Below are positions 4,641 through 35,006 of a stretch of 35,698 nucleotides of DNA, piece after piece. The notes beneath the pieces were generated by a model. The model was not told where the DNA came from. It saw nothing but the letters and a program-made list of their open reading frames with translations, and did not search any database. The stretch is taken from assembly GCA_903831005.1 (NCBI GenBank), contig CAIKWA010000151.1:1-35698 (forward strand), given 5' to 3'. The DNA comes from an uncultured Opitutia bacterium. Its GTDB lineage: Bacteria > Verrucomicrobiota > Verrucomicrobiia > Opitutales > UBA953. Each line of letters opens with the position of its first letter. Position 1 is the first letter of the stretch. The translations under genes were made by a program, and so were the position numbers.

Positions 4641-5226
4641 GACGTCCCTCTAGCGCGCTGCGCAGCGTGGCCGGGTCGGCGAAGGTCAGGCCGCTACCGC
4701 TGGGTAGGCCGAAGCCGATGCGGGAGATCTTGATCGTCGAACGGACCCCGTGGATAGCCTCGCTGATGTAATGGCAAGTCGCTTCACCTTCGATATCGTT
4801 ACCTAAGGCCAAGACGACTTCTGTGATGGGTTCGTCCTTTAGTCTTTGTTCAAAACTGGCGAGATTGAGTTGCTCGGGGCCGACTCCGTTAATCGGCGAT
4901 AGTCGGCCGTGGAGGACGTGGTAAGTGCCTCGGTAAGCTGCGGAGCGCTCGATCGCCATCAGGTCGGGAACTTGTTCGACGACGCAGATCGAGGAGGGCT
5001 CACGTTTGACGTCGAGGCAGATGGGGCAGAGTTCGGCCTCGGCCAAGCTTCCGCAGCGAGCGCAGCGGCGGACCGCGGCGGCGGCGGCCTGTAATGACTC
5101 AAGCAGAGGAGCAAGCTTACCGGGCCTTTCGACTAGCAGGTGAAGGGCGATGCGTTCGGCGGACCGGTGCCCCATGCCTGGAAGCATCTTGAGGAGTTGG
5201 CGGACCTTGTCGAAGGAAGGAGTCAC
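4624..5226 (-). CDS. recR: Recombination mediator protein RecR
   Basis: LLKMLPGMGHRSAERIALHLL (HhH), C-x2-C...C-x2-C zinc finger (CARCGSLAEAELCPIC), Toprim VVEQVPDLMAIERS...Y+GTYHVLHGRLSPINGVGPEQL. GTG start. Confidence 0.97.
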   Translation of the reverse strand: MTPSFDKVRQLLKMLPGMGHRSAERIALHLLVERPGKLAPLLESLQAAAAAVRRCARCGSLAEAELCPICLDVKREPSSICVVEQVPDLMAIERSAAYRGTYHVLHGRLSPINGVGPEQLNLASFEQRLKDEPITEVVLALGNDIEGEATCHYISEAIHGVRSTIKISRIGFGLPSGSGLTFADPATLRSALEGRRDVAN

Positions 5227-25559: not shown

Positions 25560-27776
25560 TTAGAGGGGGAGGGGCTGGCCAAGGGCGGACTCGAAGAAAC
25601 GCACGCGCTTCTCCCGCATTTCGTTGGCTTCCCCCGCTCCGTGATTGGCGCCCGGAACGACATGGAACTCGAACTGATCCTTCTTGCCAGCCGCGAGTAA
25701 TGCGTCGCGGAAATCATAACTACACTTTACGTCGACGTTGGTGTCGGCTTCGCCGACGGACAGGAAGAGCCGTCCACGCAGGTTACCTGCGTAACGTGCG
25801 CAGGAGTTCTCTTCATACCAAGGGCCGACGGGGTAGCCGAGCCATTGTTCATTCCACCAAAGCTTATCAATACGGTTGTCGTAGCAGCCGCAGTCGGCGG
25901 CGCCGGCCTTATAAAAGTCACCGTGAAGGAGGACGGCATGGGCGGTATTCTGGCCGCCAGCCGACCCGCCGAAGATACCGACTCGGCTGAGGTCCATGTT
26001 AGGTTCAATTTTGGCGAGGGAACGCATCCACGCGATACGGTCAGGGAAGCCGCCGTCCTTGAGGTTACGCCAGCTAGCTTGGTGGAATTCTTTACCACGG
26101 TTGTTGGTCCCTCGGCCGTCCAACTGCACGACGTAGAAACCTCGCAAGGAGAGTTCGCGGTGATTGCGATTCCACCAGTTAAAGGATCGGGGTGCGAAGG
26201 AGCCATGCGGTCCGGCGTAGATGTTCTCGATGACGGGATACTTCTTCTTTGGGTCGAAGGGGTGTGGGCGCGTCACGACGCCCCAGATGTCAAACTTGCC
26301 TTCGCGGTCTTTGGCCACGAACGGAGTGGTTGGCGTCCAGCCTGCTTTCTTTAGAGGCCCGAGGTCACCCTCGCCTAATTTGGCGATGACACGCCCATTG
26401 ATGCCGCTGCGCAAGGTATAGGTCGGCGGTTGGTCGACCGTTGAGGCGGCATCGATGAGGGTGCGACGATCGGGTGAGAATGTCGCCTCATGATGACCAT
26501 TCGAAGGGGTGAGGTCGATGATGCCCTGCCCGTCGAGGCCGATTCTGCAGAAATGCTGATGATACGGATTTTCGCCGGGATTACGACCGAGGGCGATGAA
26601 GGTAACTGTGCCAGCTTTCTCGTCGACTTTAAGGACTTCCTTCATGACCCAACGACCTGAAGTGATGGCAGTGACTGTCTTACCGTTCAGGAGGTCGACG
26701 CCATAGAGGTGGAGCCAGCCGCTGCGCTCCGAAAGCCAAAGGGTACGGGCCTCGCTGAGGTCGTATCGATAGCGGGTGGCGAAGGAATAGACGAACTTCG
26801 GATCTTCTTCAGAGAGGAGTCGTCGCCAGAACTTACGAGAGGTGTCGTATTCGATGACGCCATGCCCAGTGAAACCGCGGTGGATAAATTCCGTGAGGAG
26901 TCGGCGTGAATCGCCTGACCAATCCAGTCGCTCGGTGCTGTAGCTCTGCGGCAGGACTTCCGCAGGTGGTCGACTCCCAGATTTACTTTCGATGGAAAAG
27001 ATCCAAGGGGTGCGCTCAGTCCGGTCATCGCCAGGTTTGTCGTAGTTAATCAGTTTCTTCGTCTGTTTAAGTGTGTCGGTGACGCTGTACTGACGAACGG
27101 GCACAGTACGCTCCCGCCAGAGTGCGAAGTGTCGACCATCCGGGGACCAAGAGATTGGCCCGACCCAACCATCCTTTCCGGCGACACCATCCTGGGTGAG
27201 TTTGGTTTCGGTGTCGGACTTCTTTCGCTCAATCAGCACCACGTTACCCGTACGCAGCTCGACCCTAAAGTCGCCAGTAGGCGAATCAGCCCCCGTTTTG
27301 GAAAAAGAGAGGCGTTTGGATTCGCCGGGACCTCTCCCGGTGCGCTCGGGGGTTGCCGCTTCCATCTTCTTTCCTACCGCCACTGCCGTCAGTCGTTGGT
27401 TGGTCTCAAGAATCCATGCCGCGTCTTCGGCCTCTAGGCGGAGGCGCCCATCGTCGAGCGCAATCACGTGGGTGAAAGGCCACTTACGAGGCGTGACGGT
27501 ACGTTTTGTAAGGACCGAAAGAACCGCCGCTACCTTCGGATGATCAAAGGCAGGTTTAGTCTCGCCGGTGGCACAATCGACCAGTCTCCAAGAAATGGCC
27601 GGGCCTTCTTTCCAGGAATAGACCAAGAGCCTTCCAGACTCTGACCAGCGGACGTTCTCGGGTCGGCTTAGTTGGGCGGGCCAATACCAAGCGTCATACT
27701 GTTTCTGCCATTCAGCAGCGAGGTTAGCCTGGGCTAAGGCGAACAGGGGCGCCAACAGTAGGAGGCGAAGCAGCAT
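25560..27776 (-). CDS. Secreted S9 family prolyl oligopeptidase / dipeptidyl peptidase IV-like
   Basis: Signal peptide MLLRLLLLAPLFALAQANLA; DPPIV-like beta-propeller; catalytic GIFGGSAGGQNT, SVGEADTNVDV, PGANHGAGE. Confidence 0.9.
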   Translation of the reverse strand: MLLRLLLLAPLFALAQANLAAEWQKQYDAWYWPAQLSRPENVRWSESGRLLVYSWKEGPAISWRLVDCATGETKPAFDHPKVAAVLSVLTKRTVTPRKWPFTHVIALDDGRLRLEAEDAAWILETNQRLTAVAVGKKMEAATPERTGRGPGESKRLSFSKTGADSPTGDFRVELRTGNVVLIERKKSDTETKLTQDGVAGKDGWVGPISWSPDGRHFALWRERTVPVRQYSVTDTLKQTKKLINYDKPGDDRTERTPWIFSIESKSGSRPPAEVLPQSYSTERLDWSGDSRRLLTEFIHRGFTGHGVIEYDTSRKFWRRLLSEEDPKFVYSFATRYRYDLSEARTLWLSERSGWLHLYGVDLLNGKTVTAITSGRWVMKEVLKVDEKAGTVTFIALGRNPGENPYHQHFCRIGLDGQGIIDLTPSNGHHEATFSPDRRTLIDAASTVDQPPTYTLRSGINGRVIAKLGEGDLGPLKKAGWTPTTPFVAKDREGKFDIWGVVTRPHPFDPKKKYPVIENIYAGPHGSFAPRSFNWWNRNHRELSLRGFYVVQLDGRGTNNRGKEFHQASWRNLKDGGFPDRIAWMRSLAKIEPNMDLSRVGIFGGSAGGQNTAHAVLLHGDFYKAGAADCGCYDNRIDKLWWNEQWLGYPVGPWYEENSCARYAGNLRGRLFLSVGEADTNVDVKCSYDFRDALLAAGKKDQFEFHVVPGANHGAGEANEMREKRVRFFESALGQPLPL

Positions 27777-27821: not shown

Positions 27822-30800
27822 TCATTTCTTCGATTTCTCTGGTTTGGCTTTGGTGGCTTTGGGCTTCAGACCAGAGAGATAGGCCACCACATCTCGGATT
27901 TCCGTGGGCGTCAGGATGCCGAGCATCGGCGGCATGATGGAGACAGGGGGCGTACGCGAGCTAATGGCCGCGACGGCGACTTTCTGTGTTTTGCCGTCTG
28001 GTAGCCTTAAATCGAGGGACTTTACGCCTTCCTTCAGGACGCTACCTGCCAGGATCGTCCCGTCCTTGAGGACGACGGTCTCGATGCCATAGCCAGTCAC
28101 GATTTTAGCGGAGGGTTCGACCAGTGATTCGACGATTTCGTCCTTCGTGCGTTGGGCGCCGATGGTGCGGAGTATCGGACCCACTTCGCTGCCTTCGTCA
28201 GAATCGACGCGATGGCAGCCGATACAGTTGGCACCAAGATGCCCGTTGATGACGGCCTTACCCCTGAGTACATCGCCCCCCTCGGTGAGGAGCTCGTAGG
28301 GAATCTCCGCGGTGGCCATCTTGAGTCCACCCTTGGTCCCATTGGCGAGGTACTTCTGTAGGTTCTGGGTGAGTTCGGTGGAGTCAGCTTCCTTCGCTAG
28401 GAGGAAGACCTCAAGTTTGAGTCCGGCGTCCAATTTGCGGGCGTTGAGGCGTTCGACTAGTTCGCGCAGGAGCTTGGTTGAGGCGGCGTCGGTGCGACCG
28501 CGCAGCGCCATCACCACGGCCTGCTTTTCGGGCATCTTGGCGACTTTGGAATCAATCACCGCACGTGCCACCTCGAGGGCGATGCCGGTGTCGCGGCTGA
28601 AAATCTGGTGGAACGCTTCGATACGGACCGACGATGGATTACCTTCGCCGGCCGCAGCGCGAAGCGTGCGCAAAACGGTTTCGTGGTCGGTCGTCTTTCG
28701 GCCTAGGAGTCGGAGAGTCTGAAGGCGCACACTGGGGGCCGCCTTGAGGTCTTCGGCGAGTGCCAGCAGGACGGGGAATGGCAAGTTTAACTCATATTTA
28801 ACCATCAACTCCAAGACCGCAGTGCGTTCGGAGGGGTGGACGATGGCGAGGAATTCGTCTTGGCGTCTCTGTAGGCTCTGCCTGATGGCTTCCGTGTCTC
28901 GAGGAGCGTACGGCTTGGCGGTGCCATCGATGAGATCAAGGATGGGCGGACGATCAAAGAAGAGCAGAGCCTTCAAGGCTTCGGCGCGAAAGGGGGCCGC
29001 GGCAGGTTGCTGTAAGGTCCAGCTCACCAGTCGTTCGAGCGACGCGGCGTCACCTTGGCGAAGGTTGGCGTTAAGGGCTCGGCGTGCGGCCTGCTTAGGT
29101 AGCTTCGGGTTTAAGAAGGCCTGGGCGAGAGCTTCTTGGGCGGCTAAGACGCCTTCATCATCGTGGATACCTCGGGCGGCTTCATTGACGACGTCTGGAT
29201 TGGGGTGGTCGAGTAGCTTGCCTAGCAAGGGGGACTGTTGACGTGCGAGTGCGAGGGTCGCGAACGTGGCCTTGGCGCCGCTCTCACGTAACGCCAGAGC
29301 CAGAAGTTCCGCAGAAGTCTGAGTGCCCGCTAGACCGCTGACGAGACCATGTCGTAGCCAAGGTCGGCGGAGGTCCGCTTCAACATCACGCCAGAAGGCG
29401 CTAGCCTCCGTTTTGCCACCTAATTTACCTAGCGTGATACCCGCCTGGGTGCGGACCCGCAGGTCCTCATGGCCGAGCTGCTCGGTGGCCTTGGCGACTA
29501 AGCCATCGGTCGGCCGTGCTTCACTGAGCACTTTAAGGGCCTGCACGCGAATCTCTCCGTCATGGTCGTCCAGCAGGGTTAAGCACGGCGCGGCATCCTG
29601 AATCTTACCGAGGCGTAATCCCATCCCGTAACCCCAGATGGCATGAATCCGGGCGAAGCGGGGAGCATCTGTTTTTTTCGCCAAAGTGAGTAGATCATCC
29701 CAAGCACTCAGTCGGTGAAGACGAATCGAGGCGTTCACCCGAACGCGTTGGTCTCGGTGACTGAGGAGGCTGAGAAGTTCCTCCTTGGGGACCGCGACCG
29801 AAAAAGGTTTCGCAAGGATTCCTTCGGAGGACTTATCCACGTTCGGGGCTACATCGAATCGCCAAATTGCGCCTTTTCCGTCCAGCGGGTAACCACCGAT
29901 CCAGTCGGCGAGGTAAGCTTTACCGTCGATCCCCCAGGCCATGCCAATACCCATGATACCGGTGCTGACAGTTCGGAGATTCGTCTGTCGGAAGGAATCC
30001 CGCTCCGACTCTAAGGTGAAGGCGTCCATCTTGCCTTTGGGGAACTGATTGAGAAAGAAGTGGCCGCGCTGTTCTCCATCGATGGCATGACCAGGTTCGT
30101 ACAGGAAACCGGCGGGACCATCGGAGTAATTGGCGATGGGCGGGATGATGGCCAGAGGTTGGTCTGGCTGACCTTTCGGCATCCATAGGTTCTCTTTCAT
30201 CCAGCGGCTCTCGGTCTTCTGATATTGATGTTGGTTGCGCCATCCTGAGTCGGAGCCTTCTAGTAAATAGACAAGGCGCTCCCGCTCCTTGGGTTGGTCG
30301 GCATCGTTGTCGACGCCGATGACGTTGCCCAGATCATCGAAGGCAATCTCTTGGATATTCCGCACGCCGTGGGCGAAGACCTCGAAGTTTGTGCCATCGG
30401 GTTCGCAGCGGACGACGGCACCTTGGTGGGGGTAGGAGAAGCGCTTCCGTTCCTTGCTGGTGACGTTCAGCCCTTTATCTCCGATGCTCCAATAGATGCG
30501 CCCATCAGGTCCGAGTCGGAGTCCGTGCATGTCATGACCAGCATAGGCGATGTGAACGCCGAAGCCGGTGGCGACGAGTTCCTTGAGGTCGGCCACGCCA
30601 TCACCGTCGGTGTCCTTCAGGCGCCAGACATCAGGGATTGCGGTCAGGTAGACCCATCCGTCGAAGTAAAGCACGCCGGCGGCGATACCAGAAATAGGGG
30701 AGTTGAAGCCTTCGGCGAAGACAGTGATTCTGTCGGCGATACCGTCATGATCAGTGTCGGAGAGCTTGTAGATACGTTCTTTGTGGAAGGTGAGGTCCTG

Positions 30801-31133
30801 CCAGTCGATCGAACCGTCCTTATTGTGATCCTTGAGGCCTCCCCGTGCTTGTTTCATTACCCCAGGCGCCAGCATGCGTTGGTAGAAGGCCAGTTTTTCT
30901 TCGATTGAGGTCAGAGCGACGTCATCGGTTGTCCACGTGGCGTGTTCGCGGATATCGAGGTCTCCAGCTTTGCGCCGGGTCGTCGATGAGACGTAAACGT
31001 TGCCCGCTTCATCCACGGTGCAGGCGGTGGGGTCGGGGACGTTAATCTCGCCCGACCACTTGAACGGCTTCACCTCGGCGCCGAGTACGGCGATTGAAGC
31101 GACGAACAACGCGAAAGCGGAAGCGAGGGGCAT
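27822..31133 (-). CDS. PVC-type haem-binding CxxCH protein (membrane-bound dehydrogenase domain, HEAT-like repeats, C-terminal cytochrome c)
   Basis: ATG 31133: MPLASAFALFVASIAVLGAEV signal; propeller GLRLGPDGRIYWSIGDKG, VFAHGVRNIQEIAFDDLGNVIGVDND; HEAT-like LGHEDLRVRTQAGITLGKLGG; haem motif GANCIGCHRV. Confidence 0.9.
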   Translation of the reverse strand: MPLASAFALFVASIAVLGAEVKPFKWSGEINVPDPTACTVDEAGNVYVSSTTRRKAGDLDIREHATWTTDDVALTSIEEKLAFYQRMLAPGVMKQARGGLKDHNKDGSIDWQDLTFHKERIYKLSDTDHDGIADRITVFAEGFNSPISGIAAGVLYFDGWVYLTAIPDVWRLKDTDGDGVADLKELVATGFGVHIAYAGHDMHGLRLGPDGRIYWSIGDKGLNVTSKERKRFSYPHQGAVVRCEPDGTNFEVFAHGVRNIQEIAFDDLGNVIGVDNDADQPKERERLVYLLEGSDSGWRNQHQYQKTESRWMKENLWMPKGQPDQPLAIIPPIANYSDGPAGFLYEPGHAIDGEQRGHFFLNQFPKGKMDAFTLESERDSFRQTNLRTVSTGIMGIGMAWGIDGKAYLADWIGGYPLDGKGAIWRFDVAPNVDKSSEGILAKPFSVAVPKEELLSLLSHRDQRVRVNASIRLHRLSAWDDLLTLAKKTDAPRFARIHAIWGYGMGLRLGKIQDAAPCLTLLDDHDGEIRVQALKVLSEARPTDGLVAKATEQLGHEDLRVRTQAGITLGKLGGKTEASAFWRDVEADLRRPWLRHGLVSGLAGTQTSAELLALALRESGAKATFATLALARQQSPLLGKLLDHPNPDVVNEAARGIHDDEGVLAAQEALAQAFLNPKLPKQAARRALNANLRQGDAASLERLVSWTLQQPAAAPFRAEALKALLFFDRPPILDLIDGTAKPYAPRDTEAIRQSLQRRQDEFLAIVHPSERTAVLELMVKYELNLPFPVLLALAEDLKAAPSVRLQTLRLLGRKTTDHETVLRTLRAAAGEGNPSSVRIEAFHQIFSRDTGIALEVARAVIDSKVAKMPEKQAVVMALRGRTDAASTKLLRELVERLNARKLDAGLKLEVFLLAKEADSTELTQNLQKYLANGTKGGLKMATAEIPYELLTEGGDVLRGKAVINGHLGANCIGCHRVDSDEGSEVGPILRTIGAQRTKDEIVESLVEPSAKIVTGYGIETVVLKDGTILAGSVLKEGVKSLDLRLPDGKTQKVAVAAISSRTPPVSIMPPMLGILTPTEIRDVVAYLSGLKPKATKAKPEKSKK

Positions 31134-31137
31134 CGAC

Positions 31138-31269
31138 TTAACCGATGAGCAACAGATGGAGTTCCTTTGGTCCGTGGGCACCGATGCGCTTCAATACCTT
31201 GGCCGTCGCCAAGCCGACCTTGGGGGTCAACTGGTCGACGAAGCAAGGGACGAAGAGAGAGACGAGCAC
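31138..31269 (-). pseudogene. Remnant of a lutABC lactate-utilisation operon: LutA N-terminus joined in frame to LutC C-terminus
   Basis: GTG at 31269 to TAA at 31138: MLVSLFVPCFVDQLTPKVGLATAKVLKRIG-AHGPKELHLLLIG. First ~30 aa match LutA/YkgE-type N-termini (M+VSLFV.C.VD......VG.AT...L.RLG); the last ~13 aa match the LutC/LUD-domain C-terminal (G.HGP+.LHV+L). Not in the ORF track (<60 aa). Confidence 0.65.
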
Positions 31270-31273
31270 GGGA

Positions 31274-33466
31274 TCAGCGCAGGAACGCTTCGTGGAGGCC
31301 GCCGTCGACGGTGATGACCTGTCCGGTCGTCTTGCTGAGGCGGTTGGTCACGAGTAGGAAGTAGGCTTCAGCCTGGTCGGCGGGGGTGATGGGGTTCTTC
31401 GTCAGGGTGCGATCGGCGTAGAAGCGGGAGAGCTTCGTGGTCAGTGAATCGGTCGCCTCATCATCGGTGTAGGGAATATTGTACTTCGCAAGTGACGCGA
31501 TCACTCGGTCGCGTGGGAACATCGCCGAACCCTGCACAACGGTGGCTGGGGCCACGCCGTTGACGCGGATAAGGGGGGAAAGCTCCATGGCCATCTCGCG
31601 GACGAGGTGGTTGGCGGCAGCCTTGGAGGTATCGTAGGCGACGGAACCCTTCTTAGCCACGGCGGCGTTGGCGCTGGTGGTCAGCACGAGGTTGCCGCGG
31701 AGACCCTGTTCCTTCCAGGTCTTGAAGGCTTCGTCGGCGACGAGGTAGCTGCCGGTGACGTTGAGGGCGAAGGTGAGGGCCCACTTGTCGTCCGGGATGT
31801 GGCCAGTGGTGTCCGGAGAGACGAAGATCCCGGCGGTGACGCAGATGGAGTCGAAGCCGCCGTAGGCGAGCGCGACCTGGTCGAGCATCTTGCGGATTGA
31901 GGAGCGATCCATGATGTCACCCGAGAGACCGATAGCCGGACCGCAGTTGGAGAGACCCGTGCCAGCGACGCCGATGCCAGAGCCGAGCTTGTCGGTGATT
32001 TCCTTGGCGGTGCCTTGGGCCGCTTCGACGTTCTTGTCGACGCACACGATATGGGCGCCTTCCTTGACGAGGCGATGGGCGGTCTCCTTGCCGATGCCGG
32101 AACCAGCGCCGACGACGATGATGACCTGTCGGGCGAGTTCCTTCTCGGCCGGCATGCGCTTCAGCTTCGCTTCCTCGAGCAGCCAGTACTCGATGTCGAA
32201 GGCTTCCTGCTGAGGCAGGGCGATGTACTGGTCGATGGCTTCGGCGCCGCGCATGACTTCGACGGCGCAGTTGTAGAACTCGGCCGTGACGCGGGATTCG
32301 GACTTATCCTTGCCCCAAGCAATCATGCCGAGGCCGGGGATGAGAACGACCGTCGGGTTAGGGTCGCGCATCGCCGGGGAGTTCGGGCGCTTGCAGGCAT
32401 TATAATAAGAGGCGTAGTCCTTGCGGTATTGTTCGAGCGCGGCGGCCAGCTTGGTCTGCAGTGCGACGGCGTCTTCGGTCTGAGGATTCCAGTTCACGTA
32501 GAGCGGCTTGATCTTCGTGCGGAGGAAGTGGTCAGGGCAGGAGGTACCGAGCTCAGCGAGGCGAGGGGCGTCCTTCGAGTTCACGAAGCGAAGGATCTTC
32601 TCGTCGTCCTGGACGGTGCCGATGAAGCGCTTCTCCTTCGAGACCTGGCCACGGAGCCAAGGCAAGATGGCGGCGAAGGCCGCATGGCGTTTATCCGTGT
32701 CGAGGGTCTGATAGAGCGCGCCGCCGAAGGCCTTGGCGTCGCCGCCTTTGGCCTGGTACTTGGCGTCGATATAGGCCGCGGCCTGCTCGATCATCGAGAG
32801 GGTCAGTTCATAGCAGACCTTGTCGTCGTCGTCCCAGGAGATGAAGCCATGCTGGCCCATCATGATGGCCTTGATGGCGGGCTGCTGGCGGGAGATGTCC
32901 TGCATGGCGAGGCCGAGCTCGAAGCCTGGACGCATCCACTTCAAGTAGGCCATCTTACCGGCGAAGATCTCCTTGGTCAGCGCTTCGCAATTCTTCGAAG
33001 CGGCGATCGAGATAATCGCGTTGGGGTGCATGTGGTCGACATGCTTGCCGGGAAGGAAGCTGTGAAGAGGGGTGTCAATCGACGACGCGCGCGGGTTCAG
33101 GTTGAAGGTGGCGTGGTTATACATCGCGACCATGTCGTCTTCGGCCTGGGACTTGAGGCCCTTGTCGGTGCGAGCCGCATAGGACTTCTGAAGGCCGACG
33201 AGCTTGTCCTGATAAAGGGAGGAGAAGTTCTCGCGGTTGCTGGTGCGGAGGTCGCCGCCGGAACCTTTGACCCAGAGGACTTGGGTGTCGGTACCGGTCA
33301 GGGGGTCCTTCTCGATAATCTTGGAGGAGGTATTGCCGCCACCGGTATTCGTGATGCGCTGGTCGGCTCCGAGTTTGTTGGAGCGATAGACCAGACGGCC
33401 GACCGGATCGAGCTTCGCAGCTTCGGCATCGTTCCAGAGGTGAGAGACGTACTTGTAGTTGGACAT
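31274..33466 (-). CDS. Bifunctional rhamnulose-1-phosphate aldolase / short-chain dehydrogenase (RhaEW/YuxG-like)
   Basis: N-terminal class II aldolase (NTGGGNTSSKI, VKGSGGDLRT, HMHPNAIISIA, MGQHGFISW); C-terminal SDR (IIVVGAGSGIGKETAHRL, LTTSANAAVAKKGSVAYDTSKAAANHLVR, GQVITVDGGLHEAFLR). Confidence 0.93.
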   Translation of the reverse strand: MSNYKYVSHLWNDAEAAKLDPVGRLVYRSNKLGADQRITNTGGGNTSSKIIEKDPLTGTDTQVLWVKGSGGDLRTSNRENFSSLYQDKLVGLQKSYAARTDKGLKSQAEDDMVAMYNHATFNLNPRASSIDTPLHSFLPGKHVDHMHPNAIISIAASKNCEALTKEIFAGKMAYLKWMRPGFELGLAMQDISRQQPAIKAIMMGQHGFISWDDDDKVCYELTLSMIEQAAAYIDAKYQAKGGDAKAFGGALYQTLDTDKRHAAFAAILPWLRGQVSKEKRFIGTVQDDEKILRFVNSKDAPRLAELGTSCPDHFLRTKIKPLYVNWNPQTEDAVALQTKLAAALEQYRKDYASYYNACKRPNSPAMRDPNPTVVLIPGLGMIAWGKDKSESRVTAEFYNCAVEVMRGAEAIDQYIALPQQEAFDIEYWLLEEAKLKRMPAEKELARQVIIVVGAGSGIGKETAHRLVKEGAHIVCVDKNVEAAQGTAKEITDKLGSGIGVAGTGLSNCGPAIGLSGDIMDRSSIRKMLDQVALAYGGFDSICVTAGIFVSPDTTGHIPDDKWALTFALNVTGSYLVADEAFKTWKEQGLRGNLVLTTSANAAVAKKGSVAYDTSKAAANHLVREMAMELSPLIRVNGVAPATVVQGSAMFPRDRVIASLAKYNIPYTDDEATDSLTTKLSRFYADRTLTKNPITPADQAEAYFLLVTNRLSKTTGQVITVDGGLHEAFLR

Positions 33467-33505: not shown

Positions 33506-34975
33506 TTATGATTTCTTTAAACCATTAAACTTCGCGTGAGCGGCGGCCCATGTGGACGTCGGATTAGGTTTGTAAGTCACTACCTCAAAGGAGTTTCTGA
33601 CGACCTTACGTAATTCATCCAGGTTCTTGAGCTCCTTCATGGCGATGGCTTGGACGAGAATGTTCCCGGCGGCCGTGGCTTCGACCGGTCCAGCAATCAC
33701 TGTGCGACCTGTGGCGTCTGCCGTGGCTTGGTTGAGCAGCGCGTTGCGGCAGCCGCCGCCGACGATGTGGAGTCGCTTGAGCTTACGGCCGGTCAGTTTC
33801 TCCATGCCGTCCAGCTCGACGCGATAGAGGAGCGCGAGCGACTCGAGCACGCAACGGGCGATCTCGCCGTGTGTCTTCGGTACTGGCTGCTTAGTCTCGC
33901 GGCAGAAGGCTTGGACCTTCGCGACCATGTCCCCGCGCTTGGCGAAGCGAACGTCGTCTGGACGGATGAACGAGCGAAGCGATGGAGCTTTGAGCGCAAG
34001 CTTCACGATTTCACCGTAGTCGGAGACTTCACCTTTCTCCATCCATTCGCGACGGCATTCCTGCAGCACCCAAAGACCGACGAGATTCTTGAGGAAGCGC
34101 GAAGTACCACCGAAACCGACTTCATTGGTATACTTGGCCTTACGGACGGTCTCATTCACGAGCGGCTTGGGGAGTTCGAGTCCGATGAGCGACCAGGTGC
34201 CCGAGGATAGGTAAGCCCAATCGTCGCCCTTGGTAGCCGGGACGGCGGCGACGGCGGCGGCGGTGTCGTGGGCACAGGTCGTTACTATCTCTGCCTTGCC
34301 GAGTCCGGTTTCCTTGGCGAGATACGGCAGCAACTTGCCCAGCTTCACGCCAGGAGCGACAGGCTTGGGGAAGATGTGCTTCGGGATGCCGAGCTTCTTC
34401 AGCACCGGCCAAGCCCAATCGCGCTTACGGGTATCCCAGCACTGACTGCCGGAGATCAGGGTCTCTTCGGCGCGAGCCTTGCCGGTCAGAAGCCAGGTGA
34501 TGTAGTCGCCGATGAGGAGAAATTTGTCCGCGAACTGGAGCATCTCGGGGCGGTTCTCGGCGTCGTCGAAGAGCTGGTAGAGAGTATTGATTGAGATCGA
34601 GGCGATGCCCGTACCTTCGAAGATCTCCTTCTGGGAGAAGCGGCGCATGGCCAGTTCGTAGGATTTGAAGCTGCGTTCGTCGCGATAAGTGAAGGGGAGC
34701 GAGAGCAAGGGGCCATCACCTTTGAGCAGGACATAGTCGACGCCCCAAGAGTCACAGGCGATGGACTTGATTGGGCCGAGCTTGGCGCCCTTGGCCAGAC
34801 CGATACGGATTTCGCGGAAGATGCGGATGATGTCCCAGCGGAGGGTGCCGTTGGCGGTGATGGCACCGTTGGAGAAACGATGGATCTCCTTCATGGTGAA
34901 TTTCCCGGCCTTAAGCTGGCCGAGGATAACGCGGCCAGATTCGGCTCCGAGGTCGATGGCGAGGTAATTGGACAT
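33506..34975 (-). CDS. rhaB: Rhamnulokinase (FGGY carbohydrate kinase)
   Basis: MSNYLAIDLGAESGRVILGQL, IRIGLAKG..IKSIACDSWGVDYVLL, YLSSGTWSLIGLE, LHIVGGGCRNALLNQATADATGR. ATG 34975 preferred over TTG 34981. Confidence 0.92.
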   Translation of the reverse strand: MSNYLAIDLGAESGRVILGQLKAGKFTMKEIHRFSNGAITANGTLRWDIIRIFREIRIGLAKGAKLGPIKSIACDSWGVDYVLLKGDGPLLSLPFTYRDERSFKSYELAMRRFSQKEIFEGTGIASISINTLYQLFDDAENRPEMLQFADKFLLIGDYITWLLTGKARAEETLISGSQCWDTRKRDWAWPVLKKLGIPKHIFPKPVAPGVKLGKLLPYLAKETGLGKAEIVTTCAHDTAAAVAAVPATKGDDWAYLSSGTWSLIGLELPKPLVNETVRKAKYTNEVGFGGTSRFLKNLVGLWVLQECRREWMEKGEVSDYGEIVKLALKAPSLRSFIRPDDVRFAKRGDMVAKVQAFCRETKQPVPKTHGEIARCVLESLALLYRVELDGMEKLTGRKLKRLHIVGGGCRNALLNQATADATGRTVIAGPVEATAAGNILVQAIAMKELKNLDELRKVVRNSFEVVTYKPNPTSTWAAAHAKFNGLKKS

Positions 34976-35006
34976 GGTCAAAGGGGGTAGGGGAGGGGTA
35001 AGAAGG

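Follow-up and report, generated by a model that had tools for sequence, protein, structure and literature searches.

An in-frame lutABC deletion scar behind rhaEW in the genus UBA953, and an Mqo-family gene that accompanies operon loss

Non-orthologous gene displacement, in which an unrelated enzyme fills the same metabolic step, is exemplified by LldD and LutABC (LldEFG, YkgEFG), and the usual evidence for gene replacement is no more than a pattern of presence and absence. A lactate:quinone oxidoreductase of S. aureus, Lqo, was reportedly described by Fuller and colleagues in 2011, and we take it to belong to the Mqo family, with which the NCBIfam model NF040844 is consistent. According to passages of PMC5312079, Lqo oxidises lactate independently of NAD. 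The passages on rhamnose regulons in Rodionov et al. 2013 (PMC3870299) have RhaEW converting rhamnulose-1-phosphate to L-lactate and DHAP, make lactate dehydrogenase genes part of rhamnose regulons in other phyla, and place lldD and lldEFG with RhaEW to carry lactate to pyruvate. The regulons in those passages are described for Actinomycetales and Rhodobacterales, unlike the UBA953 locus considered here, and neither repeated lactate-gene loss nor co-occurrence with Mqo, as found in UBA953, is among the points found there.

Herein we analyzed a window of 35,698 nt (the whole stretch of DNA under study), which is one contig (C151) of a metagenome-assembled genome (MAG; G000, 1.55 Mb, 62% complete, 193 contigs); its congeners are freshwater Opitutales MAGs of the GTDB-style genus UBA953. 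Directly behind rhaEW, the initial annotation had noticed a 43-codon minus-strand open reading frame (ORF), whose two halves resemble the first and last segments of the LutABC operon; unlike that operon, the stub retains 43 of ~927 codons and no active part. Our main reading, to which we give a probability of roughly three in four, is that this ORF is the functionless scar of a ~2.65-kb lutABC deletion, and that a spreading Mqo took over L-lactate oxidation before lutABC was lost species by species.

The scar ORF and the intact operon of relatives

The features of the window on which the comparison rests are as follows:

31138..31269, minus strand: scar ORF of 43 codons, LutA residues 1-30 plus the last 13 LutC residues, in frame
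31180..31276, minus strand: part of the scar that derives from lutA, together with the rhaEW stop and a 4-nt spacer, 94-95% identical to lutA of G007 and G004
31138..31184, minus strand: lutC-derived 3' end of the scar, with the join within the shared TCGGT (31184-31180)
31274..33466, minus strand: rhaEW, bifunctional rhamnulose-1-phosphate aldolase / lactaldehyde dehydrogenase, which lies upstream of the scar and presumably supplies L-lactate
33506..34981, minus strand: rhaB, rhamnulokinase (best NCBIfam model TIGR02627, 471 bits, under the cut-off of 528)
27822..31133, minus strand: DUF7133 / HEAT / cytochrome c protein, nearest intact gene downstream of the scar, adjoining lutC in relatives that keep the operon
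25560..27776, minus strand: S9 (DPP-IV-like) peptidase, conserved downstream neighbour

The ORF runs from a GTG at 31269 to a TAA at 31140-31138, with the rhaEW stop (31276-31274) 4 nt ahead of it and the ATG of the DUF7133 gene (31133) 4 nt beyond it, exactly as first read, and the preceding gene is of the RhaEW type as proposed, scoring above the equivalog cut-offs (NF006189, 1093 bits vs 634; TIGR02632, 988 vs 568). Searched on its own against families and structures, the 43-aa peptide gave almost nothing, with a single weak Pfam match (CCG, residues 3-32, E = 0.07) and zero matches against the PDB, so that synteny with relatives decided the case. At the exact place of the stub, G004 and other intact relatives carry lutABC in the order rhaEW - lutA - lutB - lutC - DUF7133 - S9 peptidase, with products of 239, 462 and 226 aa (G004 type) that contain the CCG domain (LutA), LUD plus 4Fe-4S motifs (LutB) and LUD (LutC); congener LutB falls just under the TIGR00273 cut-off (427.5 vs 444.8). 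By blastn, scar positions 1-97 align with intact lutA of congeners (94-95% identity) and positions 93 onward with G028 DNA from the end of lutC into the start of DUF7133 (85%), in agreement with the proposed LutA origin of the first ~30 residues and LutC origin of the last ~13. Since the lutA match runs to position 97 and the lutC match begins at 93, the join lies inside TCGGT. In G004, lutA at the breakpoint reads MRVSLFVPCFVDQLTPKVGLATAKVLKRLG followed by HEVEF..., and the lutC end reads ...RILVLG followed by AHGPKELYLVLVG and the stop; both genes share one frame in this arrangement, which is why the 43 codons remain open. About 2.65 kb is absent relative to the intact operon. As the initial annotation had suggested, the stub is what an in-frame deletion left of lutABC: relatives at the same locus carry either the ancestral operon or deletions of their own.

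Microhomology at the joins is short (0-4 nt by ungapped fit across junctions, ~5 nt, TCGGT, in the window's scar), and a search for strong microhomology gave nothing decisive. The search for lutABC elsewhere in G000, as initially advised, returned no match to PF02589 (LUD), the domain by which functional LutB and LutC were recognised, in this 62% complete MAG. A possible LutA copy, the CCG protein on its contig C121, was ruled out because it aligns in congeners with GlcF-like proteins of ~430 aa. In another verrucomicrobial record (L110, 7262-13072), rhaEW and a class II aldolase-like gene lie within the lut operon itself, in the order lutA - rhaEW - aldolase - lutB - lutC.

Repeated lutABC deletions within UBA953

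Among 56 UBA953 genomes, 29 keep the operon (counting G058, in which lutC is frameshifted), 18 have lost it by deletion or retain it only as an eroded remnant, and 9 were unscorable; LUD-domain searches of genomes without the operon returned scar fragments at most. The 18 deleted genomes hold 13 distinct junctions. That of the window is common to three species (G000, G062 and G068), and further shared junctions occur in G011 and G016, in G021 and G022, and in G012 and G017, where the DUF7133 signal peptide is joined to lutA codon 6. The remainder are found in single genomes: the DUF7133 start is joined to the lutA start in G015, both lutABC and DUF7133 are missing in G031, the G033 scar comprises two internal deletions, and G029, G001, G020, G024, G009 and G059 each have a junction of their own. 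A few of the 13 could have arisen by trimming of an older scar. On an rpoB tree, from which the G028 row and one copy of rpoB out of two in G004 were excluded, the losses map to 11 clades under Dollo and to 9 changes under Fitch parsimony; collapsing nodes below 90, with polytomies lumped together, still leaves at least 8 losses. Thus lutABC was independently deleted many times within UBA953.

One contig of G015 (C209, record L003), on which rhaEW is followed by lutA, was considered as a segregating intact allele and discarded: its last ~430 nt (rhaEW tail plus lutA start) are 99% identical to G026 and the rest only ~80-87%, which marks it as a chimera or recombinant and kept it out of the intact count. 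The two rpoB copies of G004, on contigs C62 (L165) and C111 (L192), one of which groups with G002, indicate that this bin is probably contaminated. In G058 (L195), the lutC frameshift lies near 4712 with lutA and lutB intact, representing either early decay or a sequencing error. In G012 (L039), G017 (L041) and G015 (L057), the lut deletion left the DUF7133 gene fused to, or shifted onto, the start codon of lutA, so that its signal peptide begins with a few different residues or its start is a GTG; DUF7133 expression seems to have been preserved.

An Mqo-family gene and the loss of lutABC

Loss of the operon is accompanied by an Mqo-family gene (PF06039; malate/L-lactate:quinone oxidoreductase), which is present in 14 of the 18 deleted genomes and in 0 of the 29 intact ones (Fisher p = 9e-9; co-occurrence tests ignore shared ancestry, and the pattern recurs in separate clades). 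It also occurs in G003, G013, G069 and G070, which are without a LUD protein and have an unreadable lut locus, and no genome combines an intact lutABC with Mqo. LutB or Mqo was found in 45 of 49 genomes with rhaEW vs 2 of 7 in which rhaEW was not detected (p = 6e-4), and because genomes without rhaEW are mostly without both enzymes, the pair is tied to the lactate source. We therefore consider L-lactate the probable substrate of the UBA953 Mqo, by analogy with S. aureus Lqo: model cross-matches put the two in the same family, and the NAD-independent lactate oxidation ascribed to Lqo in the passages cited above is the role proposed here, although as a putative lactate enzyme the UBA953 protein scores below the cut-off of the S. 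aureus-specific Lqo model NF040844 (484 bits vs 915) while passing PF06039 and the malate model TIGR01320 (602 bits vs 550). Its scoring as a malate enzyme counts against a replacement. A deleted genome (G000) and an intact one (G004) both encode NAD-malate dehydrogenase, hence mqo fills no malate gap.

Other candidates for the replacement were rejected. For LldD, only short sub-threshold FMN_dh matches were seen in the congeners searched, which also gave no lactate permease. NAD-dependent L-lactate dehydrogenase had 0 matches over cut-off in 25 UBA953 genomes searched, and the ~50-bit match seen in nearly all 25 proved to be malate dehydrogenase in the two checked (G000 and G004). A protein assigned to the Ldh_2 family is present in both deleted and intact groups, which excluded it as the replacement and also counts against the replacement reading itself.

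Wherever its neighbourhood is assembled, mqo occupies the gap that separates a ClC-channel gene from a Dabb-domain gene, a site ~40 kb upstream of rhaEW in G011, G016 and G020. The same gap measures 11-800 bp in six genomes that keep the operon (G004, G005, G026, G058, G063 and G064), and no mqo or recognisable remnant of it was found there. Beyond mqo, the Dabb 3' end is repeated as a ~117-bp copy in G062, G013 and G070 and, in trimmed form, in G016; the recurrence of this copy across genomes suggests one original integration of mqo. At four-fold sites, mqo divergence averages 0.08-0.13 in all rpoB bins (rpoB distance 0.16 to 0.48; G015 row left out owing to a frame problem), while that of lutB climbs with rpoB from 0.27 to 0.53; the genes flanking mqo diverge by ~0.2-0.6 in most pairs. 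Because mqo divergence is flat (~0.1) at any species distance while lutB tracks the species, mqo has moved horizontally, and it spread between species much later than these diverged. By these distances, lutABC is old and vertically inherited, and mqo is young and mobile between species. Relatives of mqo were sought in viral contigs and none were found. A G+C-rich repeat-like stretch, CGCGAGGCGCGG... / CTGTTCGCCTGACGGCG, stands behind mqo in several species (L208 9740-9920, L210) and may be related to the mode of integration.

In the mechanism that we propose, RhaEW would supply L-lactate, which the Fe-S enzyme LutABC encoded behind rhaEW would have oxidised ancestrally. A Mqo-type flavoenzyme would oxidise the same L-lactate with quinone as electron acceptor, in the manner of S. 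aureus Lqo, so that its arrival would render the three-gene LutABC redundant and each species would then lose the operon through its own deletion. A more specific form, in which a single Mqo-type lactate:quinone oxidoreductase is sweeping UBA953 via recombination at one site and lutABC is deleted fast wherever mqo lands, possibly through some incompatibility, we regard as an even bet; the fast deletion is proposed because no genome has both systems.

That same absence counts against mqo having come first, as the required intermediate with both systems is seen in no genome, and speaks for each lineage having lost lut first and gained mqo later as compensation, which would still be a replacement in the opposite order. 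G022 fits this sequence in having a lut scar and an assembled mqo site without mqo. It would require about ten independent losses, each then rescued, which is less economical than one spreading gene, and we think this order rather unlikely, if the strongest competitor. The ClC-Dabb site of G022 (contig C10, L233/L234, about 82-95 kb) holds ~13 kb of other genes, among them an autotransporter-like repeat protein and an RND-efflux-like gene.

Somewhat less probable still is simple streamlining, whereby a dispensable lutABC was deleted time and again, the cells excrete the lactate that they make from rhamnose, and Mqo is a genuine malate:quinone oxidoreductase that spread for other reasons. The malate-model score favors it, as do four scarred genomes without detectable Mqo, namely G022, G031, G033 and the incomplete G000, which for the same reason count against a replacement, all the more since the site is assembled in G022 with other genes inside. 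For the scar of the window itself, the two other species sharing it have mqo (G062) or an mqo fragment (G068). Streamlining is at odds with the distribution of Mqo between deleted and intact genomes, with both enzymes being mostly missing where rhaEW is missing, and with an NAD-malate dehydrogenase in a genome of each group. The initial annotation had left open whether this lineage may excrete or otherwise handle lactate; since genomes throughout the genus that lost lut tend to have an Mqo-family enzyme, excretion is not the best reading, and oxidation by another enzyme is the more likely half of that suggestion. For freshwater rhamnose degraders, the simple prediction that they excrete lactate is corrected accordingly.

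Under the replacement that we prefer, with mqo arriving first, the presumed substitution of Mqo for LutABC at one step resembles non-orthologous gene displacement as generally known, and differs from it in that many cases occur within a single genus, where both the remains of the losing operon and the horizontal spread of the presumed winner can be read. As stubs, junctions, a presumed replacement gene, its fixed site and its low divergence can be read together in one genus, the order, rate and cause of replacement become testable. The scar alone is a modest finding; genus-wide parallel deletions with a spreading Mqo gene make a good test case for enzyme replacement, and point to a candidate L-lactate oxidase in a family often annotated as malate dehydrogenase. 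If the sweep is real, it would amount to a replicated natural experiment in enzyme replacement and to a lactate:quinone oxidoreductase outside staphylococci.

Constraint on the stub and reality of the junction

That the 43-aa ORF is a retained functional microprotein, an alternative raised at the outset, is very improbable. The ORF is open in frame in G000, G062 and G068, and a different in-frame stub exists in G011 and G016, as a kept peptide would predict; only some scars are in frame, though, the majority of the others being trimmed or out of frame. Between species that have a junction in common, the stub counts 8 silent differences and 12 replacements, vs 30 silent differences and 6 replacements when five independent pairs with intact operons are compared over these codons (Fisher p = 0.002), and residues invariant in intact LutA and LutC are altered. 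Evolving in this way without purifying selection, the stub is not a kept microprotein and is, as far as these substitution patterns indicate, decaying DNA under relaxed constraint and without function. An assembly collapse of the lutABC segment, also raised initially, has a next to negligible chance: the MAG is fragmented and one chimeric contig end is known in a relative (C209 of G015), but G000 is without any LUD protein and the identical junction recurs in the assemblies of two other species (G062 and G068), which excludes it.

A separate observation concerns the movement of the scars themselves. By rhaEW and rpoB, G016 (L040) is the sister of G017 (L041), yet its scar region (compared over about 0-400 nt beyond rhaEW) is closest to that of G011 (L038) and not to that of its sister, which suggests that scar alleles may move by local recombination.
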